This document shows positions 38,793 to 64,000 of a stretch of DNA of 64,000 nt, one piece after another. Every line of letters starts with the position of its first letter. Position 1 is the first letter of the stretch. The notes below the pieces were generated by a model. The model ran no database searches. It was not told where the DNA came from and saw only the letters and a list, made by a program, of their open reading frames with translations. Source of the DNA: Peteryoungia aggregata LMG 23059 (lineage in GTDB: Bacteria; Pseudomonadota; Alphaproteobacteria; Rhizobiales; Rhizobiaceae); assembly GCF_030814435.1 (NCBI RefSeq), contig NZ_JAUSUW010000002.1, forward strand, positions 248,001 to 312,000. The letters run 5' to 3'. The translations under genes and the position numbers were made by a program.

Positions 38793-38807
38793 GGCAGCCA
38801 ATCGGAT

Positions 38808-38829: not shown

Positions 38830-38853
38830 TCCACAGACATTGCCGGGAACATC

Positions 38854-39585: not shown

Positions 39586-39587
39586 CC

Positions 39588-45785: not shown

Positions 45786-46706
45786 ATGCCGCTGACCATG
45801 ACCAAAGAGGTCTTCATCACCTGCGCCGTGACCGGCTCCGGCAATACGCAGGATCGTTCGGCCCATGTGCCGCGCAGTCCAAAGCAGATTGCCGACAGCG
45901 CGATTGCGGCTGCAAAGGCCGGGGCGGCAATCGTCCATTGCCATGTGCGGGATCCGGAGACTGGTCGGCCCTCGCGCCGTCTTGATCTCTACCGCGAGGT
46001 CACCGAGCGCATCCGGGATGCCGAAGTCGATATTGTCCTGAACCTCACGGCAGGCATGGGCGGCGATATCATGCTCGGCCCGGTCGAGACGCCTCTGCCA
46101 CTATCCGCCGGCACCGACATGGCCGGCGCGACCGAGCGCCTTGCCCATGTCGCCGACTGCCTGCCGGAAATCTGCACGCTGGATTGCGGCACGATGAATT
46201 TTGCCGAGGCCGATTACATCATGGTCAACACGCCGGGCATGCTGCGCGCCATGGGGGCGATGATGGAGCAGCTGGGCGTGAAGCCGGAAATCGAGGCTTT
46301 CGACACCGGGCATCTGTGGTTTGCCAAGCAATTGGTGGCGGAGGGCGTCTTGTCGAGCCCGGCCCTTGTGCAGCTTTGCATGGGTGTGCCCTGGGGCGCG
46401 CCGAATGATCTCAATACCTTTCTTGCCATGGTCAACAATGTGCCCGCCGATTGGTGCTGGTCGGCCTTCAGCCTCGGTCGCGACCAGATGCCCTATGTGG
46501 CTGCAGCTGTGCTCGCCGGCGGGCATGTGCGTGTTGGTCTGGAAGACAACCTCTGGCTCGGCAAGGGACAATTGGCGACCAATGCGCAACTGGTCGAGCG
46601 GGCGGTCACGATCGCCGAAAATCTCGGCGCGCGGGTGATCGGTCCCGATGAGGTGCGCAAGAAGCTTGGCCTGATCAAGCGCCAGCCGAAGGAAAAGGCT
46701 GCATGA
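45786..46706 (+). CDS. BKACE-family beta-keto acid cleavage enzyme, probable dehydrocarnitine cleavage (CdhC-like)
   Basis: The 306-residue protein is of the BKACE (3-keto-5-aminohexanoate cleavage) family: EVFITCAVTGSGNTQ, AAIVHCHVRDPETGRPSRR with the zinc-binding His pair, NLTAGMGGD, and HVRVGLEDNLWLGKGQLATNAQLV. In carnitine breakdown CdhC reacts dehydrocarnitine with acetyl-CoA, giving betainyl-CoA and acetoacetate. AAGGAG lies before the ATG. It overlaps the next gene (ATGA), which encodes the enzyme making its substrate. Confidence 0.88.
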   Translation: MPLTMTKEVFITCAVTGSGNTQDRSAHVPRSPKQIADSAIAAAKAGAAIVHCHVRDPETGRPSRRLDLYREVTERIRDAEVDIVLNLTAGMGGDIMLGPVETPLPLSAGTDMAGATERLAHVADCLPEICTLDCGTMNFAEADYIMVNTPGMLRAMGAMMEQLGVKPEIEAFDTGHLWFAKQLVAEGVLSSPALVQLCMGVPWGAPNDLNTFLAMVNNVPADWCWSAFSLGRDQMPYVAAAVLAGGHVRVGLEDNLWLGKGQLATNAQLVERAVTIAENLGARVIGPDEVRKKLGLIKRQPKEKAA

Positions 46707-48121
46707 GCAAGGCGGCAATCGTCGGCGGCGGGGTTATCGGTGGCGGCTGGGCCGCACGCTTCCTGCTGAATGGCTGGGACGTGGCCGTCTTTGATCTGGA
46801 CCCTGAGGCCGAGCGCAAGATCTCAGCGGTTCTCACCAATGCGCGCCGGTCCCTGCCGTCCCTTTACGATCGGGCTCTGCCGCCGGAAGGACGACTGACA
46901 TTCCATGCCGATCTTGCCGAGGCGATTGACGGTGCCGACTGGGTGCAGGAAAGCGTTTCGGAACGGCTGGAGGTGAAGCTGCGGGTTTACCGCGAGATTT
47001 CCCGCCATGCGCCGGATCTGCTGATCGGTTCCTCGACATCCGGCTTCAAGGCGAGCGAGCTTACATCCGAAGGCGCAAAGGTCGTCGTCGTCCATCCCTT
47101 CAATCCCGTCTATCTGCTGCCGCTCATTGAGCTTTCCGGCGATCCGGCGCTTTGCGCCAGGGCGGAAATCCTGGTTCGGTCGATCGGCATGTATCCCCTG
47201 ACACTTCGCAAGGAGAACGACGCCTTTATCGGCAACCGCTTCCAGGAGGCCGTCTGGCGCGAGGCCTTGTGGATGATCCGCGATGGCTATGCCACGACAG
47301 CCGAAGTCGACGAGGCGATCCGCCTTGGGTTCGGCCTTCGCTGGGGACAGATGGGCATGTTCGAGACCTATCGGATCGCAGGCGGTGAGGCGGGCTTTGA
47401 GAGTTATCTGGCACAGTTCGGGCCGTCTCTCTCCTGGCCCTGGTCGAAGCTGACAGATGTGCCGGAGCTTGATGATGCCCTTGTCCGGCAGATCACCAGC
47501 CAGTCGGATGCGCAATCGGGCATGCGCTCGATCCGCGAGCTTGAGCAAATGCGCGACGACAATCTCGTCGGCTTCATTCGCTCGCTGCGCCACAGCGGAA
47601 CGGCGGCAGGCAAGGTCGTCCTCGACCATGAAGCAGGCCTTCCCGAAGGCGGCGACCATCTTGGCCTGCCGATCACCTCGTCCCGCCAGGTTCCCCAGAC
47701 CTGGACGGATTATAATGGCCACATGAACGAGGCCTGCTATCTGGAGGCCGGCAGTTGGGCGACCGACGGGCTGATGCGCCGGATCGGTGTTGACGCGGCC
47801 TATATTTCGAGCGGCTACAGCTTTTTCACCGTCGACACGCGGCTCCGCTATCTGGCCGAGGTCCATGCCGGTGACCGGCTGACCATCACCACACAGGTTC
47901 TTGCCGGCGAAGGCCGCAAGATGCAACTGTTTCACCGGATCTGGCGCGGCGATGGTGTCTTGTCAGCGACGATTGAGACGCTGCTGCTGCACACGGATCT
48001 CGCCAGTCGACGCAGCTGTCCGCCAATGCCTGCCGTGGCCGACAGGCTGGCTGAGCTGCACGCCGCCCATGCCGGCATGTCGGCTGAGGGAGCCGGCGGC
48101 GCGGTGGGCGACCGGGGTTGA
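46703..48121 (+). CDS. L-carnitine dehydrogenase fused to a betainyl-CoA-type thioesterase
   Basis: The 472-residue protein has two parts. Residues 1 to about 315 are a 3-hydroxyacyl-CoA-dehydrogenase-like carnitine dehydrogenase with the NAD site AIVGGGVIGGGWAARFLL, GADWVQESVSERLEVK and VVVHPFNPVYLLPLIE. Residues 335-450 are a hot-dog thioesterase (TWTDYNGHMNEACYLEAGS, YSFFTVDTRLRYLAEV). In Pseudomonas these are separate CdhA and CdhB; fused forms are known from rhizobia. The products would be dehydrocarnitine, and glycine betaine after BKACE action. Last gene of the operon. Confidence 0.9.
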   Translation: MSKAAIVGGGVIGGGWAARFLLNGWDVAVFDLDPEAERKISAVLTNARRSLPSLYDRALPPEGRLTFHADLAEAIDGADWVQESVSERLEVKLRVYREISRHAPDLLIGSSTSGFKASELTSEGAKVVVVHPFNPVYLLPLIELSGDPALCARAEILVRSIGMYPLTLRKENDAFIGNRFQEAVWREALWMIRDGYATTAEVDEAIRLGFGLRWGQMGMFETYRIAGGEAGFESYLAQFGPSLSWPWSKLTDVPELDDALVRQITSQSDAQSGMRSIRELEQMRDDNLVGFIRSLRHSGTAAGKVVLDHEAGLPEGGDHLGLPITSSRQVPQTWTDYNGHMNEACYLEAGSWATDGLMRRIGVDAAYISSGYSFFTVDTRLRYLAEVHAGDRLTITTQVLAGEGRKMQLFHRIWRGDGVLSATIETLLLHTDLASRRSCPPMPAVADRLAELHAAHAGMSAEGAGGAVGDRG

Positions 48122-48609: not shown

Positions 48610-49692
48610 TCAATACCCGGCTTTGATCTTCTCGAATTCGGCGATCATCTTCTGCCGCAGTTCGGTCGGCATGGGAGACTGGAACAGGGTATTGGCCGTG
48701 AATTTGTCGATATCGGCGAAGCCCTTGTCGGCAAGGATGCCGGGGGCGACGGCGGCCATGCCGCGGGCATTGGAGTGACCATAGCCCCAATTCTCCACCA
48801 TATAGGCGCTGATTGCGGGTTCGGTGATGGCATTGAGAAAGGCATATTGCTGCTCTTGGCTGCCTTCGGCCCCCTTCAGCCGGACATAGCCGCAGACCCA
48901 GGTGGATAGACCTTCGACGGTGTCCTTTTTCATCGCCACCGGCACGCCATCGGCCAGAAGCGTGGTCGCCGTTTCATTCCAAGCCCAGGCAAGATCCACC
49001 TCGCCGCCGGCAATCGCCTGGCTGAGATCGGTATTGTCCGTCCAATAGAGCCTGACATTCTGATGCACGGCGCGCAGGAAGTCGGAGGCCTGTTTGAACT
49101 GCGCGTCCGATAGCGTGGTCCAGTCCCGCACGCCGATGGCAAGGCTTGCCAGCGCATAGGCATCGTCAACATTGTCCCCGATCGATACCCGATCCTTGAA
49201 CTTGGGATCGGCGAAGGCTTTCAAGGAGGTGACCTCCTCCGGCTTCACCGTATCGGTGCGATAGGTCAGCACGGTATTGCCCCATTCGAAGGGCAGGAAA
49301 TAGGCGGTACCGTCAGCCGCCGTCATCAGGCCCTGCATCGCCTTGATGCCGGGCAGGACATCGTTCCAATGGGTAAGCTTCGATGTGTCGAGCGGCTCCA
49401 GCAGGCCGGCGTCACGCCACTTGGCCACGCTCTGCGAACAGGGATGTGCCAGATCCGCCTTGAAGCCGGAACGCAGCTTCTGGAACGCCTCTTCCTCATC
49501 GCCGAAAAAGGAGAAATCGGGCTCCGTTCCGAATTTTTCGGTATAGGCAGGGTGGAAGGCCGGATCCTCGTAGCCGGCCCAGTCAAAGACCACAATGTTA
49601 TCGGCGGCCATCGCCGGCGGCGCGACACCCGAAAGGAGACCAGACAGCAGGACGGACGGAATGGACAGTCGCATTGCAATGATGGGCTTCAT
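48610..49692 (-). CDS. PotD-type ABC substrate-binding protein
   Basis: The 360-residue periplasmic protein has a Sec signal (cleavage after PAMAADN near residue 30). The fold is of the spermidine/putrescine-binding class: IVVFDWAGYEDPAFHPAYTE, LRSGFKADLAHPCSQSVAKW, and IAGGEVDLAWAWNETATTLL. The tryptophans and acids suggest a cationic ligand. It follows the TetR gene by 31 bases on the same strand, apart from its likely permease and ATPase genes at 55.4-58.3 kb, which have no binding protein of their own. Confidence 0.9.
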   Translation of the reverse strand: MKPIIAMRLSIPSVLLSGLLSGVAPPAMAADNIVVFDWAGYEDPAFHPAYTEKFGTEPDFSFFGDEEEAFQKLRSGFKADLAHPCSQSVAKWRDAGLLEPLDTSKLTHWNDVLPGIKAMQGLMTAADGTAYFLPFEWGNTVLTYRTDTVKPEEVTSLKAFADPKFKDRVSIGDNVDDAYALASLAIGVRDWTTLSDAQFKQASDFLRAVHQNVRLYWTDNTDLSQAIAGGEVDLAWAWNETATTLLADGVPVAMKKDTVEGLSTWVCGYVRLKGAEGSQEQQYAFLNAITEPAISAYMVENWGYGHSNARGMAAVAPGILADKGFADIDKFTANTLFQSPMPTELRQKMIAEFEKIKAGY

Positions 49693-49723
49693 GGCCGGTC
49701 TCCTTGATCGATTTCAGGATGTG

Positions 49724-50410
49724 CTATGCTTTGTTGGGTCCCTCACGGGTGATGTGCTGCGGAAAAAGCCCGACGAGGAATTCGATTGCTGCCGCATGCG
49801 CGTCTTCGCGCGTCAGCCCGTCACTCATCATCAACCGCCACCAAAGGCCTTCAAGCGTGGCGCAGAGCGCAAGCGTTGTCGATCTGGGCTCGAGGGCATA
49901 TCCGCCTTCCGCCTTCAACCCGACGATCAGATCCTCGAACAGCTGCTGGTAACGGGCATCGCGCGCGCCGCAGAGTGCCTGATAGGTCGGTCGCGATTTC
50001 GCCTCCCCCCAGAAGGCGCACCAGGCTGCAAGCTTGCGTCGCGTCGTGATCCGGCGGTCGAAATCCGCAGCCACAAGCGCCCAGAGCTTGGCGGCAAGGG
50101 AAGGGCCGGCCTTCTCGTAGGCCGCCATCCAATGGGTAGAATACTCATCCGCCATCGACTGCAGGGTCGCGACCAGCAAGCGCTCCTTGCTTTCAAAATG
50201 GAAGTTGACGATGCCGCGCGACAGGCCGGCACCATCGGCCACATTGGCAAGCGTCGTCTCGGCATAGCCACGCTTGGCAAGCGAATCGATCGTTGCCTCA
50301 ATCAGCTGCTGCTGACGGGTTTCCTTGGAGGCCTTGCGCGTTCTCCTGTCCCCTGGAGCTGTCGCATCGGCGAGCGCGCCCGCATCCGAGTGAACGTTTG
50401 TCGATTTCAT
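49724..50410 (-). CDS. TetR-family regulator, BetI-like
   Basis: From the ATG at 50410 (MKSTNVHSD) the protein has 228 residues. The helix-turn-helix is at about residues 30-78 (QQQLIEATIDSLAKRGYAET, LANVADGAGLSRGIVNFHF). The C-terminal domain (AAWCAFWGEAKSRPTYQAL) resembles BetI, the choline-sensing repressor. It is divergent from the flavoprotein operon. An 18-base palindrome, 5'-GCTGAATGTTCATTCAGT, lies in the gap at 50668-50685, and a close copy lies at 58403-58420 before the aminotransferase/importer genes. It therefore probably represses the whole cluster until its ligand, likely a quaternary or cationic amine, appears. Confidence 0.88.
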   Translation of the reverse strand: MKSTNVHSDAGALADATAPGDRRTRKASKETRQQQLIEATIDSLAKRGYAETTLANVADGAGLSRGIVNFHFESKERLLVATLQSMADEYSTHWMAAYEKAGPSLAAKLWALVAADFDRRITTRRKLAAWCAFWGEAKSRPTYQALCGARDARYQQLFEDLIVGLKAEGGYALEPRSTTLALCATLEGLWWRLMMSDGLTREDAHAAAIEFLVGLFPQHITREGPNKA

Positions 50411-50667
50411 GCTATCGGTCCAGTCCTCAGCGTCTTGTCCTGAATGCAAGGGCATCATCACCTCACACACGGTTCATCAGGACCAAGATGAGTGCGACCG
50501 CACGCTTCCCTGTCAAGAACCTTCTGGCCGATCCTGCGGCTCTCCACGCAAAGACGGCGGCCTACATTCGCGGAAACCGGATCTCGTGGGTCTGAACCGC
50601 TACCAATCATCGCCATCCTCTCGTCTGACAAGAGATTAGCGCATTAATCGGGCTTTGCAATGATTTT

Positions 50668-50685
50668 GCTGAATGTTCATTCAGT
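50668..50685. promoter_or_regulatory. Candidate TetR operator, copy 1
   Basis: GCTGAATGTTCATTCAGT has 7-bp inverted arms CTGAATG/CATTCAG around two bases. It lies between the TetR and flavoprotein gene starts, 62 bases before the latter. It shares TGAAyGTyCATTCA with the site at 58403-58420. Confidence 0.7.
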
Positions 50686-50746
50686 ATCTCTGGACAAACA
50701 TCCGTTTTCCATGCCAATTTCCGTAAACACGGAGAACGGGGACAAG

Positions 50747-52366
50747 ATGAAAACCCATGACGTGGTGATGATCGGTGGCGGCCATAACGGCCTTGTCGCC
50801 GCCTGCTATCTGCAAAAGGCGGGGCTTGATGTCCTGGTGCTCGAGAAAAATGACTGGGTCGGCGGCGCAGCCACCAGCCGTGAGATGACGCCGGGCTTTG
50901 TCTATTCAAACTGCTCCTATGTCTGCTCCCTCTTCCGGCCCGAGATCATGCGCGATCTCGAATTGCCGAAACATGGATTGCAGGTCATTTCCTACGAGGG
51001 TGGCGCGGTTTTCACGCGTGATGGCGACTACCTCGCCTCCTACCGCGACCATGACAGCCATCGGCGCGAATTCGCCCGCTGGTCGAAACGCGACGCGGAA
51101 GCCTATGACCGCTATGCACGCGACGTGACGCGCCAGTGCCGCTTCATCCAGCCGCTTCTGATGCGCACACCGCCCGACCCCTTCTCCTTCAAACCGCGCG
51201 ACATCGGTGAGCTCCTGTTTCTTGCGAAACGCTTCGGCACATTTTCGCCAGAGGATATGGCCGCGACCCTGCGCTTCTGGACCATGTCGATCTCGGATTT
51301 CCTCGACGAATACTTCGAGACCGACCTGGTGAAGGCTTATCTGGCGCTATCAGGCATTATCGGCACGGCGCTTGGGCCCATGTCGCCGGGAACCGCCTAT
51401 GTGCTTCTGCACCATTACATGGGCGAAGTGGACGGCTCGGTCGGCGCCTGGGGTTATGCGCGCGGCGGCATGGGGGCCATCAGTCGAGCGCTTGCCAGTT
51501 CCTTTCAGGCCGCCGGCGGCACGATCCGCACCGGCGCCGATGTGATGAAGGTTCTGACGCGCAACGGCGAGGCGGAAGGCGTCGTGCTGGCCGATGGTGA
51601 AGAGATCCGCGGCCGCACGATCGTGTCGAATGCCGACGTCAAGCGGACCTTCCTCAAACTCGTCGACGAAAAGGACCTGCCCGAACGCTTCTTGCACCGG
51701 GTCAGGCATTTCAAGATGCGCGGATCCTCGGGCAAGCTGAACATCGCGCTCGACAGCCTGCCGGAGTTTCCAGCCCTGCCACAGGGTTCAAATTGCATTC
51801 GTGGCGACATGCATTTCACCGACAGTGTCGAGCGCATGGAACGTGCCTATGACGACTGGAAGGACGGTCGCTGGTCCGCCGATCCCTTTGTTGACATGAT
51901 GATCCCGACCACGCTCGATCCGACCATGGCCCCGCCCGGCAAACATTTCATGAGCTGCTTCGTGCAGTATTGCCCACCCAAGGTCGAAGGACGCGACTGG
52001 ACGGATGCCGACCGCGATGCCTTTGCCGAAACCGTCATCAGCCAGATTGCTGCCTATTCCCCCGGCTTCCGGGATCGCATCCTGCATATGGAAGTGCGCA
52101 CCCCGCGCGAGATCGAGGAAGAGGTCGGTCTGACCGAAGGCAATATCTTCCAGGGCGAACTGACCTTCGACCAGCTTCTCTTCAACCGACCGGTCCCCGG
52201 CTACGCCCAGTATCGCAGCCCCGTGAAAGGCCTCTATCTCTGCGGCTCCTCCACCCATCCGGGCGGCGGTGTCATGGGCGCACCAGGCCGCAATGCTGCC
52301 GCTGAAATCCTGCGCGACCTCAAACGTGGCCGGCAACATATGAGTGGGGCCCATGACGTCATATGA
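50747..52366 (+). CDS. FAD-dependent oxidoreductase of the phytoene dehydrogenase-like group (first of a tandem pair)
   Basis: From the ATG at 50747 (GGGGA upstream) the protein has 539 residues. The FAD-binding GGGHNGL motif is at residues 10-16 (VVMIGGGHNGLVAACYL) and the C-terminal FAD/substrate region reads LYLCGSSTHPGGGVMGAPG. This group (COG1233 type) holds desaturases and amine-oxidising enzymes; carotenoid genes are absent nearby, so a role in oxidising an amine or carbon-nitrogen bond fits the context better. Its stop overlaps the second copy by 14 bases, implying coupled synthesis and perhaps a heteromer. Confidence 0.85.
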   Translation: MKTHDVVMIGGGHNGLVAACYLQKAGLDVLVLEKNDWVGGAATSREMTPGFVYSNCSYVCSLFRPEIMRDLELPKHGLQVISYEGGAVFTRDGDYLASYRDHDSHRREFARWSKRDAEAYDRYARDVTRQCRFIQPLLMRTPPDPFSFKPRDIGELLFLAKRFGTFSPEDMAATLRFWTMSISDFLDEYFETDLVKAYLALSGIIGTALGPMSPGTAYVLLHHYMGEVDGSVGAWGYARGGMGAISRALASSFQAAGGTIRTGADVMKVLTRNGEAEGVVLADGEEIRGRTIVSNADVKRTFLKLVDEKDLPERFLHRVRHFKMRGSSGKLNIALDSLPEFPALPQGSNCIRGDMHFTDSVERMERAYDDWKDGRWSADPFVDMMIPTTLDPTMAPPGKHFMSCFVQYCPPKVEGRDWTDADRDAFAETVISQIAAYSPGFRDRILHMEVRTPREIEEEVGLTEGNIFQGELTFDQLLFNRPVPGYAQYRSPVKGLYLCGSSTHPGGGVMGAPGRNAAAEILRDLKRGRQHMSGAHDVI

Positions 52367-53909
52367 TGCGATCGTGATCGGCGGCGGCCACAATGGCCTG
52401 ACCGCGGCAGCCGCACTGGCCAGCGCTGGGCGCCGGGTCGTGGTTCTGGAGGCGGATACAGCTGCCGGCGGGATCCTGCGCGGCGACGAGTTTCATCCGG
52501 GCTTCCGGTCGAACGGCCCTGCCCAGATCATCAACCGGCTCGACCCCGATGTGATAAAGCTGCTCAGCCTGCCGGCTCATCTGTCCGACGGCCCGCAGCT
52601 TGAAACCATCCTCCTGTCGCAGGGCAGGCCTCCGGCCATTCTCGAAGGGGCCTATGGCGAGCGGATCACCGGCGTGCCGGATGATGAGGCTGAGGCCTTC
52701 CGCATGCTTCGTGACAAATTGCTGTTTCAGGCCGGCATCTTGCGGCGTTTCCTCAAGCGGACGCCGCCAAGGATGGGCAGTGTGCAAGGCGGCGATCTTG
52801 CGGCGTTCGGCGCAGCCGGCCTTGGTCTGCTTGTGACGGGTCGCGAGGAGGGCCGTGATTTCCTGCGCATGCTCTTGATGAATGTCGCCGATGTCGGGGA
52901 TGAGTATCTGAGTGACGACCGCCTGAAGGCATTGCTCGCCTTCGACGCCACGCTCGGCATCCAGCTGGGACCCCGCTCGCCCACCTCGCTTCTCGGCCTC
53001 TATTACCGCCTGACCGGCACGCTGAACGGACGCGCGGGTGGCCAGTTCGTTCCGGAAGGCGGGATAGCGGCACTGGGCGAGGCCTTCGTCGCGGGTGCGA
53101 TCAAGGCAGGCGTCACCATCCGCACCGGGACACCGGTCGCCCGCATCCTGGCCGACAGGGGCATTGCCAGCGGCGTCGTTCTCGCCGGAGGCGAGACCCT
53201 GAGGGCACCGCTTATCGTGTCGGCTGTTCACCCGAAGACCACTTTCCTTACCCTTGTGGATGCCGCAGAAATCGGCACGGGCTTCCGCCGTGCGGTCACC
53301 AACATCCGCTCGCAGGGCAACGTCGCGCGGCTAGACCTGGCGCTCGATGGACAGCCTGCCTTTTCAGGCCTGCCGCAGGAGGCGCTTCGGGGTCGGCTGG
53401 TCATCGCCCGTTCCATGGACCATGTCGAGACCGCCTTCAATGCGTCGAAATACGGTGAATTCCACGAGGACCCGGTCATGGAAGTGACGGTACCCAGCCT
53501 TGCGCAGCCCTCGCTCGCGCCAAAAGGCGCGGCAACCCTGTCCGCGCTGATCCCCTTTGTTCCCTATGCGGCAAAGGGCGGATGGGACGATCAGAGAGCA
53601 AGACTTCAGGCCGCCATCCTGTCCGTGCTGGAGAGCCATGCACCCGGGATAACGGCAACGGCAAAGGGCGCAAGGCTGATGCTGCCGCCGGATATCGAGG
53701 CTTCGTATCACCTGCCCGGTGGCCATTGGCATCATGGCGAGTTGCAGGCGGATCAGCTTCTCGTCAACCGACCGGTCCATGCCGCTTCACGTTACGCAAC
53801 TCCGTTGCAGGGCCTTTTCCTTGCCAGTGCAGGCTCGCATCCAGGCGGCGGCATATCCGGCCTGCCGGGACTGCTCGCGGCACGCCAAATTCTCGCTGGA
53901 GGCAGATGA
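52353..53909 (+). CDS. FAD-dependent oxidoreductase of the phytoene dehydrogenase-like group (second of a tandem pair)
   Basis: The 518-residue protein begins MTSYDAIVIGGGHNGLTAA and ends with LFLASAGSHPGGGISGLPG, clearly paralogous to the preceding gene (both share GGGHNGL, QLLxNRPV and SHPGGG/THPGGG). The two have diverged widely, so duplication is old. A GTG at 52344 is an alternative start. The next gene begins on the overlapping ATGATG. Reaction unknown; oxidation of an N-methyl or amine group feeding the GcvT-fold protein is plausible. Confidence 0.85.
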   Translation: MTSYDAIVIGGGHNGLTAAAALASAGRRVVVLEADTAAGGILRGDEFHPGFRSNGPAQIINRLDPDVIKLLSLPAHLSDGPQLETILLSQGRPPAILEGAYGERITGVPDDEAEAFRMLRDKLLFQAGILRRFLKRTPPRMGSVQGGDLAAFGAAGLGLLVTGREEGRDFLRMLLMNVADVGDEYLSDDRLKALLAFDATLGIQLGPRSPTSLLGLYYRLTGTLNGRAGGQFVPEGGIAALGEAFVAGAIKAGVTIRTGTPVARILADRGIASGVVLAGGETLRAPLIVSAVHPKTTFLTLVDAAEIGTGFRRAVTNIRSQGNVARLDLALDGQPAFSGLPQEALRGRLVIARSMDHVETAFNASKYGEFHEDPVMEVTVPSLAQPSLAPKGAATLSALIPFVPYAAKGGWDDQRARLQAAILSVLESHAPGITATAKGARLMLPPDIEASYHLPGGHWHHGELQADQLLVNRPVHAASRYATPLQGLFLASAGSHPGGGISGLPGLLAARQILAGGR

Positions 53910-55129
53910 TGACGCTCACCCCTGCCCTGCGTCGTGTCGGACAAGCCCATATCGCCACGCCACGGCTCGAAACACCGTTCCATCCCAGGCTACAGGCGCT
54001 TTCAACCACGAATGACTGGTACACCTGGGCGGGCTACAAGGCGCCGCACTCGGTGTTTGACGAGGAGCTCGAGTATTTCGCAATCCGGTCCACTGCCGCG
54101 CTTTTCGATATCTCCCCCATGGTGAAATATCGCATCAGCGGCGGCGACGCCGAGCGCTTTCTCAATCGCGTGACGCTACGGGATGTCCGAAAGCTGCGCC
54201 CCGGCCGCGTACAATACACAGCCTGGTGCGACGATCACGGCCATGTGCTGGACGATGGCACGCTGTTCCGGCTGGCCGAAACAGATTTCCGCCTGTGCTG
54301 TCAGGAACGTCACCTGCCGTGGTTGGCTGACAGCGCCGAGGGCTTCAGTGTCACGATCGAGGAGGAAACCGAAACGCTCGCGGCGCTCGCGCTTCAGGGG
54401 CCAACCAGCTTTTCGGTGCTCGATGCCGCGGGATTTTCGGGCATCGAGACACTGAAACCGTTCCAGCTTGCTGCATTCCTGCATGAGGGCCACGAGATCA
54501 TCGTATCGCGCACAGGTTTCACCGGCGACCTGGGTTACGAGCTGTTTGCACCAGCCGGCATCGCCCTGTCGCTCTGGGACCGGCTCTGGCAGGCCGGCGA
54601 ACTCTTCGGCCTTCGGGCGATCGGCTATAACGCCCTCAACCGTGCCCGTATTGAAGCTGGCTTCATCGTCGCCAATGCCGATTTCACCACTGCCGAGACG
54701 GCCCTGCGGCCCGATCGCGAACGGATGCCGGACGAAATCGGCCTCGACTGGCTGGTTGATCCCGAAAAGCCGTTCTTCAACGGGCGCGATGCGATCCTGA
54801 ACGCACGGCAGAAGAAATCGTTGCGCTACAGTCTCGTCGGGCTTGAAATCGAGGGAAATATCCCGGCAGAGCACGCCATCGTCTACCACCGCAAGAGCCG
54901 TGAGGCGGGGATTGTCACCGCCGGCATCTGGTCGCCCCTGGCCAAGCGCAATATCGCCATCGCCACGCTGTCGCGGCCCTTCGGCGCGTCCATCGTCGAT
55001 GACCTCTGGGTCGAAATCTATGCGCTGAAGGAACTGCAATACCAGAAACTGATGAAACGCGCGAAAATCGTACCACGCCCCTTCATCAAACTGGAGCGGC
55101 GAACGGCGACGCCGCCGTTTCGGTTCTGA
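53909..55129 (+). CDS. GcvT-fold aminomethyltransferase/demethylase-like protein
   Basis: The 406-residue protein resembles the T-protein of the glycine cleavage system and related folate-dependent demethylases: AALFDISPMVKYRISGGDAE, NRVTLRDVRKLRPGRVQYTA, ISRTGFTGDLGYELF-like ISGF (here IVSRTGFTGDLGYELFAP) and GYNALNRARIEAGF. No other gcv genes are near, so the glycine cleavage system is unlikely. It probably transfers a one-carbon unit from a methylated amine to tetrahydrofolate. Start at 53909 has GGAGG at a better distance than the ATG three bases before. Confidence 0.87.
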   Translation: MTLTPALRRVGQAHIATPRLETPFHPRLQALSTTNDWYTWAGYKAPHSVFDEELEYFAIRSTAALFDISPMVKYRISGGDAERFLNRVTLRDVRKLRPGRVQYTAWCDDHGHVLDDGTLFRLAETDFRLCCQERHLPWLADSAEGFSVTIEEETETLAALALQGPTSFSVLDAAGFSGIETLKPFQLAAFLHEGHEIIVSRTGFTGDLGYELFAPAGIALSLWDRLWQAGELFGLRAIGYNALNRARIEAGFIVANADFTTAETALRPDRERMPDEIGLDWLVDPEKPFFNGRDAILNARQKKSLRYSLVGLEIEGNIPAEHAIVYHRKSREAGIVTAGIWSPLAKRNIAIATLSRPFGASIVDDLWVEIYALKELQYQKLMKRAKIVPRPFIKLERRTATPPFRF

Positions 55130-55139
55130 GGCGAAAGCG

Positions 55140-55394
55140 ATGGACAGCGATCCGGATGGCGAAGCTGCAACCCAATGGCAGACAGTCACACTGCTGCCGG
55201 GCATAGAATGGTCCGGGCGCGCGCGCTATGCGGCAGCCATGTATTTCCATGCGCGCGGCGACATGGATGGACAAACGCTGGAGGTCTATCGCTACCTCGC
55301 GCGCCTTGATGACGAGGATCCCACAGATGTTCTACGGCGCTACAGGATCGGCGCAGACTGGCTCGTCAGGCTGACGGGATCAAGGCTGGACTGA
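55140..55394 (+). CDS. Small uncharacterised protein of the flavoprotein-GcvT operon
   Basis: An 84-residue acidic protein (MDSDPDGEAATQWQTV...) rich in Tyr/Trp/Arg, without signal peptide, membrane span or cysteines. It starts 10 bases after the GcvT stop and ends 15 bases before the convergent ATPase stop. The lack of Cys excludes the zinc-binding small subunit (SoxD) of heterotetrameric sarcosine oxidase, the obvious analogy. I recognise no family. It may be a small subunit or chaperone of the flavoprotein complex. Confidence 0.6.
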   Translation: MDSDPDGEAATQWQTVTLLPGIEWSGRARYAAAMYFHARGDMDGQTLEVYRYLARLDDEDPTDVLRRYRIGADWLVRLTGSRLD

Positions 55395-55409
55395 CGTCTG
55401 CGCCGCCCG

Positions 55410-56531
55410 TCAGACCAGCGTGCGGATGCGGTCTTCGACCTTGTCGTCGGCCAGCGCGACAAAGGCCTCGGGATCATAGGCAAGCCGGATCCTCTCTCCG
55501 ATCGGCAGGTCATCGGCCCCATAGGTATTGGTCTCGATCATCTGGAGAGGCTGTTCCAGCCCCTCAACCCGGACGGACAGATGTGTCGTCTCACCGAAAT
55601 AGGCCCGATCGCTGACGATGCCGTGCAATTCGTGGTCGGCGTGATCTCCGTCCCACAGGAGACGCAGACGCTCTGGCCTGATCCCGAGCGTGATCCGATC
55701 CCCCAGCCTGCCACCGGAAGCCGCCGCCGCAAGCCGCAGCCGTCCAAAGCGCTCGGTGTCCACCGCCAGCATGTCACCAACCGTCTCCACGACGCGACCG
55801 GAGAGGAAGTTCATACCGCCGAGGAAATCGGCGGTGAGCCGCGTCAGCGGATGCTGGTAGAGCTCCTTCGGCGTCGCGACCTGCGCGATACGCCCGCCGA
55901 ACATGACGGCGACCCGGTCAGAGAGCGCCAGCGCTTCATATTGGTCATGCGTGACCAGGACAAAGGTGATGCCGACCGCCTTCTGCAACGCGCGCAGTTC
56001 GGATTGCATCTCCTCGCGCAGTTTCTTGTCGAGGGCAGACAGCGGTTCGTCGAGCAACAACACCTTGGGTCGAAGCACCAGGGCGCGCGCCAGAGCCACC
56101 CGTTGTCGCTGGCCGCCTGACAATTCGTGGCCACGCCGCCTGCCGAGATCGCCAAGCCGCACCTGCTCAAGCGCCTCGGCCACGCGGCGACGCTCCTCGA
56201 CCTCTCCGAGTTTCAGGCGTTTCAGCCCATAGGAGACGTTTTCCTCGACATTCAGATGCGGAAAGATCGCATAGCTCTGGAACACCATGTTGGTCGGCCT
56301 GCGGTTTGGCGGAACGCCGATCACCGACTGACCATCGATGCGGATATCGCCGGAACTGGGGGTCTCGAAACCGGCAATGGAGCGCAGCAAGGTGGTCTTG
56401 CCGCAACCCGAGGGGCCAAGCAGCGAGAAGAATTCCCCGGAGGCAATGTCGAGCGAGATATCGGTCAGCGCCTTGTAGATCCCGTAGAACTTGTTCACCC
56501 CCGAAATTGCGATCATCGGCATATCAGACAT
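55410..56531 (-). CDS. PotA-type ABC importer ATPase
   Basis: From the ATG at 56531 the protein has 373 residues. It has Walker A GPSGCGKTT, Q-loop MVFQSYAIFPHLNV, signature LSGGQRQRVALARAL, Walker B VLLLDEPLSALD, switch His VTHDQ, and a C-terminal TOBE-type regulatory domain (about 285-370). It overlaps the permease stop by eight bases and shares the operon with two permeases; the binding protein is at 48610-49692. The frame is open upstream through the permease gene and does not mark a longer protein. Confidence 0.92.
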   Translation of the reverse strand: MSDMPMIAISGVNKFYGIYKALTDISLDIASGEFFSLLGPSGCGKTTLLRSIAGFETPSSGDIRIDGQSVIGVPPNRRPTNMVFQSYAIFPHLNVEENVSYGLKRLKLGEVEERRRVAEALEQVRLGDLGRRRGHELSGGQRQRVALARALVLRPKVLLLDEPLSALDKKLREEMQSELRALQKAVGITFVLVTHDQYEALALSDRVAVMFGGRIAQVATPKELYQHPLTRLTADFLGGMNFLSGRVVETVGDMLAVDTERFGRLRLAAAASGGRLGDRITLGIRPERLRLLWDGDHADHELHGIVSDRAYFGETTHLSVRVEGLEQPLQMIETNTYGADDLPIGERIRLAYDPEAFVALADDKVEDRIRTLV

Positions 56532-57345
56532 GGGCTGCGGCTCCCGCGGACAGGTGTCGCTCGGCACGCCGGCGCAAGAGCTCGGCGGCAACAAGCAGGC
56601 AGATGGACAAGACAAGCATGATGCTGCCAAGCGCCAGGACGCCCGGCAGCTTGGCGGTGAAACGAAGCTGTCCCCAGATGTAGACAGGCAGCGTCGGCTC
56701 GGTGCCGGAGAGAAAGAAAGCCAGCAGGAATTCATCAAGCGAGATGGTGAAGGACACAAGAAGACTGGACAGGATGGCAGGAGCGACGACAGGCAGCGTG
56801 ACCCGGAAAAACGTGCCGAAGGCTGTCTCGCCAAGATCGAGTGATGCCTCCTCCAGCGATCGGTCAAACCCGTCGAAGCCGGCGGTCAGAACGGCCATCG
56901 AATAGGGAAGGCAGAAAACCACCTGCCCGAGGATCACGGTGGCGAGTGAAAGCTCCAGGCCAACCTGGAGGATGATCATCAGCAGCGAAACGGCAACGAT
57001 GATCTCGGGCAGGAACAGCGGGGCCATGATCAGGCCATTTGCAGCCGCCCGCCCCCGGAATCGATAGCGCGTGACCGCACGCGCCGCGCAGATCGCCAGT
57101 CCCGTTGACAGGACGGAGACGCAGAGGCCGACGACGAGACTGTTGAAGGCCGCATCGAGCATTTCGCTATTGCCCCAAAGTGATGCGTACCATTTGGTGG
57201 TGAACCCGGAGAGCGGAAAACGGGGGGCCGCCGCATCATTGAAGGAAAACACCGGAAGCAGCAGGAGCGGCAGATAGAGAAAGGCAAGATAGATCGCCAT
57301 GTAGATGGGCAGGAGGCGCCAGCGGGAGGGGTTGAGAACACTCAT
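56524..57345 (-). CDS. PotC-type ABC importer permease
   Basis: A 273-residue permease with about six spans and the coupling loop SLEEASLDLGETAFGTFFRVTLPVVAPAI. It starts on an ATGA overlap with the PotB-type permease gene and its stop lies within the start of the ATPase gene, so all three are translated together. PotC-type sequence supports a polyamine, quaternary-amine or similar cation as substrate. Confidence 0.92.
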   Translation of the reverse strand: MSVLNPSRWRLLPIYMAIYLAFLYLPLLLLPVFSFNDAAAPRFPLSGFTTKWYASLWGNSEMLDAAFNSLVVGLCVSVLSTGLAICAARAVTRYRFRGRAAANGLIMAPLFLPEIIVAVSLLMIILQVGLELSLATVILGQVVFCLPYSMAVLTAGFDGFDRSLEEASLDLGETAFGTFFRVTLPVVAPAILSSLLVSFTISLDEFLLAFFLSGTEPTLPVYIWGQLRFTAKLPGVLALGSIMLVLSICLLVAAELLRRRAERHLSAGAAAHV

Positions 57346-58262
57346 CGGATCCGCCTCGCCACCAGTTTCACTGCAAGCGCAATGGACAAGGCCATCAACG
57401 ATACAATGACCATCGTGGTGACGGACAGAGCAGCACCAAGGGGCCAGTTCGCAGCCTTGCCGAATTGCGCCTGGATGGCATTGGCGATCATGACGCCGTC
57501 CTTGCCGCCGACAAGACGGGGCGTGACATAATCGCCGACGGTCGGAATCATGACGATCAGCAGTGCGGAAATGACACCCGGCATGGAGAGCGGCAGCACC
57601 ACACGCAGGAAACTGCGAACCGGCCCGTCGCCGAGATCCCGCGCCGCCTCGACCAGCGATCGATCGATCTTTTCCAGAGAGACATAGATCGGCAGAATGG
57701 CAAAGGCCGCCCAGCTATGGACAAGGGTGATCGTCACGGCGGTGGAATTGTAGAGCAGCGAACCGATCGGCTCGGTGATGGCACCCGCCGACATCAGCCC
57801 GGTGTTCAAAACGCCCTGATAGCCGAGGATCATCTTCCAGGACATCACGCGCAGAAGGTAGCTGGTCCAGCACGGCACCGTGATGAGGAATAGCAGCAGG
57901 TTCTTGTGCCGCCCGCCATGGAAGGAAATGAACCAGGCGACCGGATAGGAGGCGACGAGCGTGATGACGCTGACGACGAGGCTGATGGTCAGCGAGCGGG
58001 TCAGCAGATCGCGGTAGATCGGCTCCGTCAGGGCAGCACGGTAGTTTTCCAGCGTGAAGCTGCGGTCGATCTCAAGATAGTTCTGCGACCAGAAACTATA
58101 GGCAAAAACCATGAGAATGGGGATGCCGAGCATGAAGAGCGCAAACAGCACCGTCGGTGAAATCAGCGTGAGGCCGACCGCCTCTTCGCTGCGCAGCCAG
58201 GCGCGTCGTTGGTCCGTGGGCTCGTCCAGCCCCTTGGCCGATTGATCCGCCGCCAGAACCAT
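57342..58262 (-). CDS. PotB-type ABC importer permease
   Basis: I start at the ATG at 58262 because GGGGAGGGG lies five bases before it; this gives 306 residues, normal for PotB. The frame is open to 58415, but that start falls inside the candidate operator. Features are LISPTVLFALFMLGIPILMVF as first span and the coupling loop LVEAARDLGDGPVRSFLRVVLPLSMPGV. First gene of a leftward operon, divergent from the class III aminotransferase gene. Confidence 0.9.
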   Translation of the reverse strand: MVLAADQSAKGLDEPTDQRRAWLRSEEAVGLTLISPTVLFALFMLGIPILMVFAYSFWSQNYLEIDRSFTLENYRAALTEPIYRDLLTRSLTISLVVSVITLVASYPVAWFISFHGGRHKNLLLFLITVPCWTSYLLRVMSWKMILGYQGVLNTGLMSAGAITEPIGSLLYNSTAVTITLVHSWAAFAILPIYVSLEKIDRSLVEAARDLGDGPVRSFLRVVLPLSMPGVISALLIVMIPTVGDYVTPRLVGGKDGVMIANAIQAQFGKAANWPLGAALSVTTMVIVSLMALSIALAVKLVARRIR

Positions 58263-58402
58263 CAGGACCCCTCCCCACAACGGCAACAGGCATAAGACAG
58301 CAATCGTCGCATGACAGGCCCCCGGCTTTTCGCGGTGTTCGCGTCCCTTGAGCATGATGAACGCAATCGGCAGCAAATTGCAAGCACACCTCTCGATATT
58401 TG

Positions 58403-58420
58403 ATTGAACGTCCATTCAAT
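58403..58420. promoter_or_regulatory. Candidate TetR operator, copy 2
   Basis: ATTGAACGTCCATTCAAT lies in the gap between the PotB-type permease and aminotransferase genes, 59 bases before the aminotransferase ATG. It shares TGAAyGTyCATTCA with the palindrome at 50668-50685 and has perfect 6-bp outer arms ATTGAA/TTCAAT. Confidence 0.7.
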
Positions 58421-58478
58421 ATGATGCTATTACATAAGAAGTTTCAGTTGCTTGAAACGATAGCTGAAAGGCAAGCCC

Positions 58479-59897
58479 ATGGTTGAAATGCGCAAAGTCA
58501 AAGGTCTGAGCCAGCAGGCGCGGGACGCATTTGCCGAAAGCGCCAGAGCGCATCTCATTCAACCCTGGCCGGTGGCTGGAGAGATCGGTGCGGAATCGCG
58601 CGGCGGCATCGTCTCCGGCAACGGCATTTATGTGACGGATATCGAAGGCCGGCGGCAGATTGATGGCCCGGCTGGCATGTGGTGCACCAATGTCGGTCAT
58701 GGCTGCGAGCCGATTGCCCGGACGCTTTACGAACAGGCCATGGCGCTTTCCTACAATTCGCCCTGGTACACGGCAAACGACCCGTCGGTCCGCCTGTCAG
58801 AGCGCCTAGCGAACCATGCCCCCGGAGATCTCAATCACGTCTTTTATACGACTGGCGGCTCTTCAGCGGTGGAGACCGCGCTGCGCTTCATGCAGTTTGC
58901 CAACAACGTGCTGGGGCGAGCCGACAAGAAGATGATCGTGGCGCGCCAGGGCGCCTATCACGGCTCGACCTATCTCTCGGCCTCCTTGAACGGTCGCCCC
59001 CGCGATCACGACTGGATGGACAGTGCCGGCGAGTTGGTCATCAAGCTCACTTGCCCCAATCCCTTCCGCCGCCCGGCCGGTGTCTCGGTCGAGGCCTTCT
59101 GCGACATGCTCGTCGACGAGTTCCGCAACACGATTGAAACCTATGGCGCCGAGCGCATCGGCGCCTTCATTGCCGAGCCGATCATGGCCTCGGGCGGCGT
59201 GATCGTGCCGCCGGAGGGCTATCTTGACCGCATGCGCGCACTCTGCACCGAACACGATATCCTGTTCATTGCAGACGAGGTGGTGACAGCCTTTGGGAGG
59301 CTTGGTCATGTCTTTGCCTCGAAGGAAGTCTTCGGCATCGAGCCCGATATCATCACCTTTGCCAAGGGCGTCACCTCAGGCTATTTCCCGCTCGGCGGCG
59401 CGATGATCTCGTCACGGCTTCTGGAGCGGCTGCGCCAATCCAATCATGCCGACGCCATGTTCGCGCATGGCCTCACCTATAGCAGTCATCCGATCGGCTG
59501 CGCGGTGGCTGAAACCAATCTGGATCTTCTGGAAGGCGGCATTCTCGCCCAGGCGCGCGCGAATGCCCCCTATTTCCAGGCTCAATTGAAAAGCCTGGAA
59601 GATCTCCCCCTTGTCGGAGAGGTGCGTGGCCTCGGTCTGATGGCCTGTGTGGAATGCGTGGCCGATCGGGAGAGCAACAATCCGCTGGCACTCGACCTCG
59701 AAGTCGGCAAGAGGATCGATGCCCATTGCCAGCAACTGGGCCTGCTGGTGCGCCCGCTCATCCATATGTGCGTGATGTCGCCACCGCTGACGATTTCCAG
59801 ACCGCAGATCGACGACCTGGTCTCCATTCTTCGGCAGGGCATCTCGCTGACCCAGGATGAACTCACGCGCGAAGGGTTATGGAAGGGCTGCCCCTGA
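58479..59897 (+). CDS. Class III (omega) aminotransferase
   Basis: A 472-residue PLP enzyme with YTTGGSSAVETALRFMQF, the YHGSTYLSASLNG loop, FIADEVVTAFGRLGHVFAS and the PLP-lysine in FAKGVTSGYFPLGGAM. Class III members use beta-alanine, GABA, putrescine or taurine-like substrates with pyruvate. The gene is alone on its strand, but its promoter carries the same palindrome as the flavoprotein operon, so it likely works in the same route, perhaps removing an amino group after demethylation. A 780-base gene-free region follows. Confidence 0.9.
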   Translation: MVEMRKVKGLSQQARDAFAESARAHLIQPWPVAGEIGAESRGGIVSGNGIYVTDIEGRRQIDGPAGMWCTNVGHGCEPIARTLYEQAMALSYNSPWYTANDPSVRLSERLANHAPGDLNHVFYTTGGSSAVETALRFMQFANNVLGRADKKMIVARQGAYHGSTYLSASLNGRPRDHDWMDSAGELVIKLTCPNPFRRPAGVSVEAFCDMLVDEFRNTIETYGAERIGAFIAEPIMASGGVIVPPEGYLDRMRALCTEHDILFIADEVVTAFGRLGHVFASKEVFGIEPDIITFAKGVTSGYFPLGGAMISSRLLERLRQSNHADAMFAHGLTYSSHPIGCAVAETNLDLLEGGILAQARANAPYFQAQLKSLEDLPLVGEVRGLGLMACVECVADRESNNPLALDLEVGKRIDAHCQQLGLLVRPLIHMCVMSPPLTISRPQIDDLVSILRQGISLTQDELTREGLWKGCP

Positions 59898-60680: not shown

Positions 60681-61469
60681 TCAAGTGCCGCTTTTGACCA
60701 TACGTCTGCGAATTTCGATGATCAGCACGCCAAGCAGAGTGGCTACAATCAAGATGACGCAAAGCGCATTGATCGTTGGTGTGATGCCGCTTCTCACCTT
60801 TGAAAATACATAGACCGTCAAGGTATCGTAAGGGCCGCGCGTAAAGAGTGTAACGTTGAAATTTTCGATCGACTGAAAGAAGGCGATGACCGCTCCTGCC
60901 CCGAGTGCCGGGTAGAGGTGCGGCATCAAAATGCGGCGTATCACCATCATATGGCTTGCGCCAAGATCAAGGGCCGCTTCCTCCAGCGAACGATCGAAAC
61001 TCTGCAAGCGCGCGAGGACCAAAAGCATCACGAAGGCCGAGATATAGGAGGCTTGGCCGAGGACGGCGATATGGAGACCGGGCGCGACGCCAAGCGTGTT
61101 CCATAGAAGCAGCGTGGAGATCCCGATCACGGCGCCAGGGGTGAGCACGGGTGCGACCATCATGCCGTAGAGCGTGGACCTCAGCGTGCCACGAAGATTG
61201 TTGACCAGGATGGCGGCTGCGGTGCCGATCGGCACCGAGATCGCGACGACAGCGAGGGCAACCAGCAGCGTATTCTTGAAGGCGTTGAGCAGGCGGGCGT
61301 CGTTCCACAATTCCACGAACCACTGCAGGGTAAACCCATACCAAGGAAAGACGGAGGGGAAACGTGTGTCGTTGAAGGCAGCGCCCCCCATGACCAGCAA
61401 TGGCAGCAACAGATAGGCCAGAAAGATGACGAGATAGACGCGAAACAGCCAGTCGGATTTCTGGGTCAT
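60681..61469 (-). CDS. PotC-type ABC importer permease (second system)
   Basis: A 262-residue permease with about six spans and the coupling loop SLEEAALDLGASHMMVIRRILMPHLYPAL. It starts seven bases after the PotB-type gene and is the last gene of a leftward operon: binding protein, ATPase, PotB-type, PotC-type. It is related to but distinct from the permease at 56524, so the window has two importers of this class. Confidence 0.92.
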   Translation of the reverse strand: MTQKSDWLFRVYLVIFLAYLLLPLLVMGGAAFNDTRFPSVFPWYGFTLQWFVELWNDARLLNAFKNTLLVALAVVAISVPIGTAAAILVNNLRGTLRSTLYGMMVAPVLTPGAVIGISTLLLWNTLGVAPGLHIAVLGQASYISAFVMLLVLARLQSFDRSLEEAALDLGASHMMVIRRILMPHLYPALGAGAVIAFFQSIENFNVTLFTRGPYDTLTVYVFSKVRSGITPTINALCVILIVATLLGVLIIEIRRRMVKSGT

Positions 61470-61476
61470 GCGGTCC

Positions 61477-62361
61477 TCACTTCGCGATGTCGGACAGTTT
61501 GACGCGGAAGATCCGCATGACTGCTGTTACGAAGAGCGTACACAGGATCAGGAGCAGGAAGGCGTAAGCGGCACCCGTATTCCAGTCGAGTGACTCGAAC
61601 ATCCATTGCTGGATGATTTCCGTGAACCAGCGCGAGTTGGTCGAGGCGAGCAAGGTCGGCACGAGGATGGAGCCCGCCGACAGCATGAAGACCATCACGG
61701 ACCCGGACGCAATGCCGGGTTTGGCATGGGGCAGGATGACGCGCCAGTGGATCCGCCACCACGACGCCCCGAGATCGTCTGCCGCCTCGATCTGGCTCGT
61801 GTCGAGCGACTGGATCGCGTTGTAGACCGGGAACAGCATGAACAGGACATAGGTGTAAACGAGGCCGATCATCACGCTGCGGAAGCCCGTCATCCATCGG
61901 ATTGGGCGTTCGATGATGCCGATATCGAGCAGGATGTAGTTGAGCGGGCCCTTGAGCGACAGGATGATGAACCAGGCGAAGGAGCGCATGATTTCGCTGA
62001 CCCACAACGGAATGGTGAGCAGCAGGAAGATGGTTGGCAGGCTCTTCGGCGACGCCCTCTTCGAGAGGTAGTAGGCCAGCGGATAGGCAATAGCGAAACA
62101 GATGGCGGTCACGATCGAGGAATAGAGGACCGTCCAGACAAAGACAGAGATGTGGATCGGGCTCTGGAAGAAGGTCAGGTAGTTCTTGAGCGTATAGACA
62201 TCCTTCGGGCCGCCCATCTCCTGCACCGGCAGATAGGGCCGGAAGGAGTTCTCGAACAGATAGAGGTTTGGCACGATCACCAGCAGCAGGAGCCAGAAGG
62301 CGACCAGCAGGCACATGATCAGGGTCAGGCCGCCACCATAACGTTCGACGAGGTCCTTCAT
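61477..62361 (-). CDS. PotB-type ABC importer permease (second system)
   Basis: The 294-residue permease starts on an ATGA overlap with the ATPase stop. Coupling loop DTSQIEAADDLGASWWRIHWRVILPHAKPGI and six spans are visible. The long frame of 360 codons in another register over the same DNA has no protein-like features. Heterodimer partner of the PotC-type permease. Confidence 0.92.
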   Translation of the reverse strand: MKDLVERYGGGLTLIMCLLVAFWLLLLVIVPNLYLFENSFRPYLPVQEMGGPKDVYTLKNYLTFFQSPIHISVFVWTVLYSSIVTAICFAIAYPLAYYLSKRASPKSLPTIFLLLTIPLWVSEIMRSFAWFIILSLKGPLNYILLDIGIIERPIRWMTGFRSVMIGLVYTYVLFMLFPVYNAIQSLDTSQIEAADDLGASWWRIHWRVILPHAKPGIASGSVMVFMLSAGSILVPTLLASTNSRWFTEIIQQWMFESLDWNTGAAYAFLLLILCTLFVTAVMRIFRVKLSDIAK

Positions 62362-63452: not shown

Positions 63453-63500
63453 TGCGTGTGGTTCATTCCCTTGGCCCGGCGCGGGCTTCGTTTGGCTCCG

Positions 63501-63526
63501 ATGCCGGCCGCAAAGGCGGCCGGCAT
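63501..63526 (-). other. Intercistronic stem-loop after the second binding-protein gene
   Basis: ATGCCGGCCGC (63501-63511), loop AAAG, GCGGCCGGCAT (63516-63526): a perfect 11-bp GC stem 15 bases after the binding-protein stop, without a T run. It parallels the hairpin at 38808-38829 in position and form. Confidence 0.7.
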
Positions 63527-63541
63527 GATCCGTCAAATCGC

Positions 63542-64000
63542 TCAGGCAGCCTTGTACTTGTCGGCATATTCGCCGCGCTTGGCGAGGAACCATGCGGCCT
63601 GGCTCGGCCACCAATAGAGCTTGCTCACGGCATCGCCGGGGAAGCTTGCCTTGTAGAATTCGGAGACGGTCGGATCCATGAGGTCGATGCCGCCCTTGCC
63701 GACGGGATTTGCCGAGAAGGCGGTGGCCCAGAGGGCGGAGCCTTCTGCCGTCGACACCCATTTGGCGAATTCATGCGCCTGTTCGACATTCTTGGCGTTC
63801 TTCAGCAGGACCAGGCCCTGGTTCCAGGCAAAGGCGCCTTCCTTCGGGGCGACGTAGCTGTAGCCGCCTTCCTTCTTCAGGTTGAAGCCGGTGGAATCCC
63901 AGCAGAGGCCGAGGACCGCGCCATTGGTGCGGAAGGCCGCCTGTGCGTCATTCTCGCCAGACCAGAACTGGACGATGTTGCCCTTGGCCTTGATCGCCTC
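63542..64000 (-). CDS. PotD-type substrate-binding protein (N-terminus beyond window edge)
   Basis: The C-terminal 152 residues are present, up to a TGA at 63542-63544; the N-terminus lies beyond base 64000. The visible part has IVQFWSGENDAQAAFRTNG, the AVLGLCWDSTGFNL strand and GAFAWNQGLVLLKNAKNVEQ, typical of spermidine/putrescine-type (ABC family 1) binding proteins. It should serve the PotABC-type importer downstream. Ligand unknown. Confidence 0.85.
   Translation of the reverse strand, partial: EAIKAKGNIVQFWSGENDAQAAFRTNGAVLGLCWDSTGFNLKKEGGYSYVAPKEGAFAWNQGLVLLKNAKNVEQAHEFAKWVSTAEGSALWATAFSANPVGKGGIDLMDPTVSEFYKASFPGDAVSKLYWWPSQAAWFLAKRGEYADKYKAA

Follow-up and report, generated by a model that had tools for sequence, protein, structure and literature searches.

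Which compound is handled by a gene cluster that brings together two flavoproteins, a GcvT-fold protein, a PotABCD-type importer and an aminotransferase? This question is raised by a 64,000-nucleotide stretch of Peteryoungia aggregata LMG 23059 (contig NZ_JAUSUW010000002.1, positions 248,001 to 312,000; the whole stretch is hereafter the window), in which the cluster spans positions 48610-59897. Based on gene order, shared operator sites, co-occurrence in other genomes, homology to the animal protein PYROXD2 and residue patterns, we propose, with confidence only slightly above even, that the regulon to which these genes belong would import a trimethylated omega-amine, strip its three N-methyl groups stepwise and then transaminate it. 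The cluster consists of the following elements (positions within the window):

48610..49692, minus strand: PotD-like periplasmic substrate-binding protein (SBP), with the aromatic box kept and three of four acidic polyamine contacts replaced
49724..50410, minus strand: BetI-related TetR regulator, for which the ATG at 50410 was judged the likelier start (longest open reading frame (ORF) to 50470)
50669..50684: operator CTGAATGTTCATTCAG, about 62 bp before FAD1
50747..52366, plus strand: FAD1, a PYROXD2-type flavoprotein
52344..53909, plus strand: FAD2, a second, faster-diverging PYROXD2-type flavoprotein (start codon GTG)
53906..55129, plus strand: GcvT-fold (aminomethyltransferase folate-binding) protein
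55140..55394, plus strand: 84-aa protein, predicted to be all-helical, with named relatives in Rhizobiales
55410..56531, minus strand: PotA-type ATPase (ATG at 56531 judged the start)
56524..57345, minus strand: PotC-type permease
57342..58262, minus strand: PotB-type permease (longest ORF to 58415; the ATG at 58262 was chosen as the start to agree with the annotated orthologue's length)
58404..58419: operator TTGAACGTCCATTCAA, between PotB and the aminotransferase
58479..59897, plus strand: class III (omega) aminotransferase, exceeding the PRK07036 cut-off

All ORFs were open, in the order and on the strands given by the first-pass annotation of this DNA. Its description of the FAD1, FAD2, GcvT and 84-aa genes as overlapping holds for the first three (FAD1/FAD2 by 23 bases, FAD2/GcvT by 4 bases) and fails for the last, since the 84-aa gene starts 10 bases after GcvT. 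Annotated plasmid records name the cluster genes oxidoreductases, aminomethyltransferase family protein and hypothetical protein.

An operator common to both ends of the locus had been predicted, and a 16-base palindrome is indeed present in both promoter regions of the window (50669 and 58404), giving three strand-matches at two places compared with a mean of 0.17 in 100 shuffles. A refined pattern, YTGAAYGNNCRTTCAR, which was derived from the operator sites themselves, occurred at exactly three places in the 4.83-Mb genome, and the reversed-pattern control at none. Two of these are the window sites, one ahead of FAD1 and the other separating PotB from the aminotransferase; the third (C2:320274) is 17 bp upstream of a Rieske oxygenase ORF (C2:319058-320257) located 7 to 8 kb beyond the end of the window. 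A stricter pattern allowing one mismatch matched five genome places, three of them not at promoters of this gene set. When 40 genomes of the genus were scanned, the six carrying FAD1 held 3, 3, 3, 3, 3 and 4 sites; among 30 others examined for both FAD1 and sites, 29 held none and one (G035) held a single site, and four further genomes outside the FAD1 comparison held none. With the reversed pattern as a control, 3 of the 40 showed one place each; the genomes scanned are relatives and hence not independent trials.

The position of the sites was also counted in 86 sequences (80 genome loci, 5 plasmid loci and the window), accepting up to two mismatches to TTGAAYGNNCRTTCAA within 300 bp upstream of a gene. 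Left out of this count were genes whose upstream sequence was shorter than 200 bp, matches of no more than 40% identity and two L036 genes of Rieske type that carry the annotation SRPBCC. A site was located upstream of FAD1 in 83/86 cases, of the aminotransferase in 70/72 and of the Rieske gene in 23/27; in relatives that carry a divergent methyltransferase gene it preceded that gene in 66/67, this site being identical with that of FAD1. No site preceded FAD2 (0/85), GcvT (0/83), the ATPase (0/85), SBP (0/110), PotC (0/72), carnitine dehydrogenase (0/2) or BKACE (0/1) in the same count. Genes lacking a site were FAD1 of L034, L035 and L036, the aminotransferase of L069 and L036, and both Rieske genes of L035 and of L036. 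Overall, 176 of 198 sites fell within 300 bp upstream of some listed gene, and the first 20 loci contained 54 sites compared with 0 after mononucleotide shuffling. Judged from these sequence patterns, the gene set is a real and tight regulon marked by one operator, and the earlier proposal of a single regulon is borne out by the three genome-wide sites, the upstream counts and the way in which sites track FAD1 within the genus. We infer that the TetR protein binds these sites. It had been called BetI-like and is BetI-related; nevertheless, it scores 106.8 and 98.2 bits, below the respective NCBIfam BetI cut-offs of 201.3 (TIGR03384) and 118 (NF001978).

The same association extends to gene content. 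Scanning species genomes by FAD1 alignment revealed at least 568 stretches encoding some FAD1 relative, of which the best 80 were kept, all with at least 82% identity and mostly from relatives of Rhizobium, Shinella, Mesorhizobium and Phyllobacterium. These 80 loci and the 5 plasmid loci were examined, counting only loci long enough and disregarding importer or transaminase matches below 40% identity; having been selected by FAD1, the set shows the companions of FAD1 and not how frequent its partners are alone. FAD1 was accompanied by FAD2 in 84/84 eligible loci, by GcvT in 82/82 and by TetR in 83/83, which agrees with the expected co-occurrence of the flavoprotein pair with the GcvT-fold gene. 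The SBP (63/68), ATPase (62/68), PotB (61/68), PotC (61/68) and aminotransferase (63/68) genes were nearly as constant, while a methyltransferase gene was found in 67/84 loci and a Rieske gene in 32/68. The predicted co-occurrence of the 84-residue protein stood in 80/82 loci and was not universal, the gene being absent in L035 and L036 and not detected in L157-L161. Median identities to the window proteins were 84% for FAD1, 72% for GcvT, 57% for FAD2 and 55% for the 84-aa protein. In five more distant genomes (L157-L161) FAD1, FAD2 and GcvT were together in 5/5, and in L162 the contig ends after FAD2. A FAD1-like match at 1e-100 was present in 53 of 398 genomes of the phylum, and 11 of the 53 reached at least 60% identity. 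A distantly related, GntE-like class III transaminase (420-472 bits against the GntE cut-off of 525) adjoins FAD1-FAD2-GcvT in L157, L158, L159 and Fuscovulum (L035), and therefore a transaminase looks required even though its type changes; the stretch examined in L160 contained none. The importer and the transaminase are absent or replaced in some relatives, as would be expected if unrelated neighbours had come to share a regulator merely by drift. We find that explanation scarcely credible, since the association of sites with genes and the FAD1-FAD2-GcvT linkage go far beyond chance.

The nature of the two flavoproteins is central to the proposed function. They had been labelled phytoene-dehydrogenase-like, which is not the most fitting name, as both are homologous over their full length to mammalian PYROXD2: FAD1 is 41% identical to the mouse protein (551 columns, E 9e-142) and FAD2 31% identical (E 6e-68). 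The nearest NCBIfam models are CrtO and CrtI, far under their cut-offs; for FAD1, 132.2 bits against 238.1 (crtI_fam) and 315.2 against 1000 (CrtO) argue against a carotenoid desaturase or ketolase. The scores with the sarcosine oxidase models were below the cut-offs as well (soxB, FAD1, 25.8 bits against 529.45; soxA, FAD2, 20.1 against 1164). In a 37-row tree that includes one misaligned row (L138), the FAD1 clade had a support of 1.0 and the FAD2 clade of 0.72, and with midpoint rooting, the same misaligned row included, mammalian PYROXD2 fell outside the bacterial group. In amine oxidases such as MAO and LSD1, a lysine is situated close to the flavin, and position 330 of FAD1 would be equivalent to it. 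Lys330 is invariant in 86/86 FAD1 proteins, and lysine occupies this position in 119 of 120 PYROXD2 records listed, the remaining record being unmatched by the search expression. At the corresponding position, the 86 FAD2 proteins have Lys (73), Arg (12) or Gln (1), and the FAD2 of the window has Arg329.

Human genetics links PYROXD2 to methylated amines. In a plasma study (PMC8109053), the strongest genetic link of all was that of a PYROXD2 missense variant with N6-methyllysine; the same variant accounted for about half of the plasma variance of N6-methyllysine and about half of that of N6,N6-dimethyllysine. The same text also links PYROXD2 to N-methylpipecolate and, in other work, to trimethylamine and dimethylamine (PMC8109053). 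The association with methyllysine was replicated in a second report (PMC9730628).

The GcvT-fold protein suggests where the methyl groups would go. It contains the Pfam domains GCV_T and GCV_T_C, and its best match in both PDB and NCBIfam is the C-terminal part of trimethylamine N-oxide demethylase (Tdm), with an identical DDGTLFR stretch. It scores 244.7 bits against a cut-off of 1100 for the whole-protein Tdm model, covering only profile positions 375-724 of 763, and falls below the cut-offs of the glycine cleavage T models (207.2/300 and 153.7/235.85 bits) and of soxA (146.6 bits against 1164). The C-terminal part of Tdm takes formaldehyde to tetrahydrofolate. A rather different role would follow if FAD1 and FAD2 cut the backbone C-N bond and released methylamines, with the GcvT-fold protein merely guarding against formaldehyde from the Rieske step. 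We regard this as distinctly unlikely, given that a separate transaminase would be left without an amine substrate and that the GcvT and FAD2 genes share 4 bases. As for the 84-aa protein, its all-helical prediction has a confidence of 88, and fold and family searches gave no significant match. SdhE/SDHAF2 was the top row in Foldseek with a weak E of 2.2, and its hhalign score of 11.9 compares with at least 10 of 100 column shuffles reaching 13.5 or more. The 83 matches of the family are, where named, from Rhizobium, Ensifer, Mesorhizobium and relatives, and a Pfam scan of 58 members revealed none of the sarcosine oxidase delta family.

The importer had been annotated as PotABCD, and a PotD-like protein and PotABC genes are present. 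In PotD, we take the ligand site to consist of an aromatic box and the acidic ligands E36, D168, E171 and D257. The binding protein keeps the aromatic residues (Trp34, Tyr37, Trp229, Trp255 and Tyr293), whereas Glu36 is replaced by Gly, Asp168 by Asn, Asp257 by Cys and Glu171 by Asp. At least 110 of the 112 homologous matches show this pattern, and the remainder do not cover the position. Since three of the four PotD acidic ligands are lost, polyamine is an unlikely substrate; the residue pattern suits a ligand whose cationic head is caged. The PotABCD and BetI-type names would suit an ordinary polyamine or choline/glycine-betaine utilisation locus whose parts were mislabelled. The lost acidic contacts, the scores under the BetI cut-offs and the lack of a recognised choline or betaine-aldehyde dehydrogenase in the genes adjoining the three operators of this genome make that very improbable. 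About 1 kb past the cluster (60681-64000 and L156:478-8108), another PotABCD importer is encoded, along with an agmatinase-family gene and a further class III aminotransferase.

The Rieske oxygenase adds a further element. The Rieske protein of this genome is 89% identical to that encoded beside the cluster in Rhizobium sp. SL42 (L032). For the cluster Rieske proteins of five relatives, GbcA was the best among NCBIfam models, at 124.8-151.3 bits against a cut-off of 670 (NF058607), the two from Rhizobiaceae scoring 124.8 and 137.4; the best PDB match of the L034 protein was carnitine monooxygenase. GbcA and carnitine monooxygenase act on quaternary amines. The presence of this gene under the same operator strengthens the first-pass suggestion of a methylated or quaternary cation as the likely substrate.

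The genes adjoining the cluster bear on the choice of substrate. A gamma-butyrobetaine/carnitine-type set lies next to it, as does a similar set in L159:

41703-48121: acyl-CoA dehydrogenase, CoA ligase, enoyl-CoA hydratase and BKACE (the last two of the first three judged by eye), with a carnitine 3-dehydrogenase fused to a thioesterase domain

A second pair of BKACE and carnitine 3-dehydrogenase genes is found near the Rieske gene of the regulon (L156:12446-14926; C2:321445-323925). Such genes recur in the window (45786-48121), L156, L159 and L060, and those in L037 surround a related FAD-GcvT pair. Moreover, the aminotransferase is nearest to omega-amine transaminases, its best named PDB matches, after an unnamed one, being 4-aminobutyrate transaminases, and one acidic residue remains in the binding site. 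All of this would suit the same machinery acting on an omega-amino acid betaine (gamma-butyrobetaine, a carnitine-like compound or valerobetaine) demethylated to GABA or 5-aminovalerate and then transaminated. The carnitine genes tested for the operator, however, lack it and look like a separate route, and we consider this version rather unlikely. Further upstream (36055-41694) lie a deiminase-family gene, a polar amino-acid ABC transporter and a GlxA-type regulator, assigned by eye.

In the pathway that we favour, demethylation of a trimethylated omega-amine, the PotD-like protein and PotABC would import a cation with one aromatic-caged head, and the GbcA-like Rieske oxygenase would take off the first methyl as formaldehyde. 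FAD1 and FAD2 would then oxidise the tertiary and, subsequently, the secondary amine, the GcvT-fold protein would hand the one-carbon units to tetrahydrofolate, and the class III aminotransferase would convert the freed primary amine to an aldehyde. The BetI-related TetR protein would repress all three promoters until the substrate binds. Stepwise demethylation followed by deamination is suggested because three methyls would be matched by one Rieske protein and two flavoproteins, followed by one transaminase, an arithmetic that is suggestive only. N6-trimethyllysine is our best single guess for the substrate, held with low confidence and favoured because of the PYROXD2 link; a betaine such as gamma-butyrobetaine comes next, favoured because carnitine genes recur nearby. 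Also with low confidence, we suggest that two PYROXD2-type flavoproteins and a GcvT-fold protein, with a small helical partner in Rhizobiales, may form an N-demethylase of a new, tetrahydrofolate-linked class that is specific for free methylated lysine.

Several observations weigh against this scheme. Trimethyllysine has two cations, whereas the binding site retains one acid, and the carnitine genes in the vicinity make a betaine no less plausible than a lysine derivative. FAD2, whose window copy has Arg instead of Lys, may lack oxidase function, and in the literature examined the reaction of PYROXD2 itself is not established. Only 32/68 relatives have the Rieske gene within the stretch, and no Rieske reductase was recognised beside it, no search having been aimed at reductases. 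An S-adenosylmethionine (SAM) methyltransferase gene without a role in the demethylation scheme lies beside TetR/FAD1 in 67/84 relatives; it is situated between these two genes and shares their operator (e.g., L042:9000 and L157:5819-6658), and it has no match in this genome. No operator turned up at the two Rhodobacterales loci (L035 and L036). Finally, where PYROXD2-like genes occur elsewhere as single copies, a GcvT neighbour is present in only 1/21 loci and a Rieske neighbour in 5/21, so the flavoprotein-Rieske link is wider than that of a flavoprotein pair with GcvT.

Other arrangements were seen along the way. Single-copy PYROXD2-like genes lie near a Rieske oxygenase gene in other lineages (L197, L202, L205, L211 and L148), and at a further locus (L146) a gene annotated as an aminomethyltransferase is situated 9 kb away and truncated by the end of the stretch. 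In Agrobacterium (L147:1-8860), a PYROXD2-like gene stands beside a phosphotransferase, a class III aminotransferase-family gene and an aminobutyraldehyde dehydrogenase, a set that we take to be reminiscent of hydroxylysine breakdown. Among loci L066-L117, mostly from Mesorhizobium, a sulfatase-like ORF (32/85 loci) and an M19-dipeptidase-like ORF (27/85) were assigned by eye.

The gene set is widespread, the best 80 of at least 568 stretches with FAD1 relatives all having at least 82% identity. As three sites define a small regulon, its substrate can be approached through a single repressor and a single binding protein. Were it a methylated lysine or a related betaine, this would fill a gap in the recycling of methylated amines by soil bacteria, and the function of PYROXD2, which is a strong metabolite locus in humans, would become directly testable. 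Should the new demethylase class prove true, it would offer a bacterial, genetically tractable key to the job of PYROXD2 in animals.

Among the papers listed by literature searches, none described this gene set, in agreement with the first-pass view of it as a candidate undescribed pathway. Its parts nevertheless resemble known systems. The C-terminal part of Tdm matches the GcvT-fold protein of the cluster, which lacks the N-terminal domain of Tdm. Flavin oxidation of an N-methyl amine with a GcvT-fold partner, as predicted here, is the principle of dimethylglycine oxidase/dehydrogenase, heterotetrameric sarcosine oxidase and N-methylglutamate dehydrogenase. These folate-linked demethylases, some of which carry a small extra subunit, use DAO-type flavoproteins, whereas those of the cluster are of the PYROXD2/CrtI type. 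FAD1 and FAD2 belong to the same distant flavoprotein family as CrtI and CrtO, but CrtI has Val at the Lys330 position, as read off the alignment. GbcA, carnitine monooxygenase and stachydrine demethylase are closest to the cluster Rieske proteins of the relatives, which lie far below the GbcA cut-off. Mammalian PYROXD2 shares with FAD1 the FAD-binding start, the C-terminal HPGGGVMGA-GRNAA block and Lys330; we take it to be a single protein, whereas the cluster has two diverged copies coupled to a GcvT-fold protein. The cluster is a new combination of known kinds of parts and a useful pointer to the animal enzyme.

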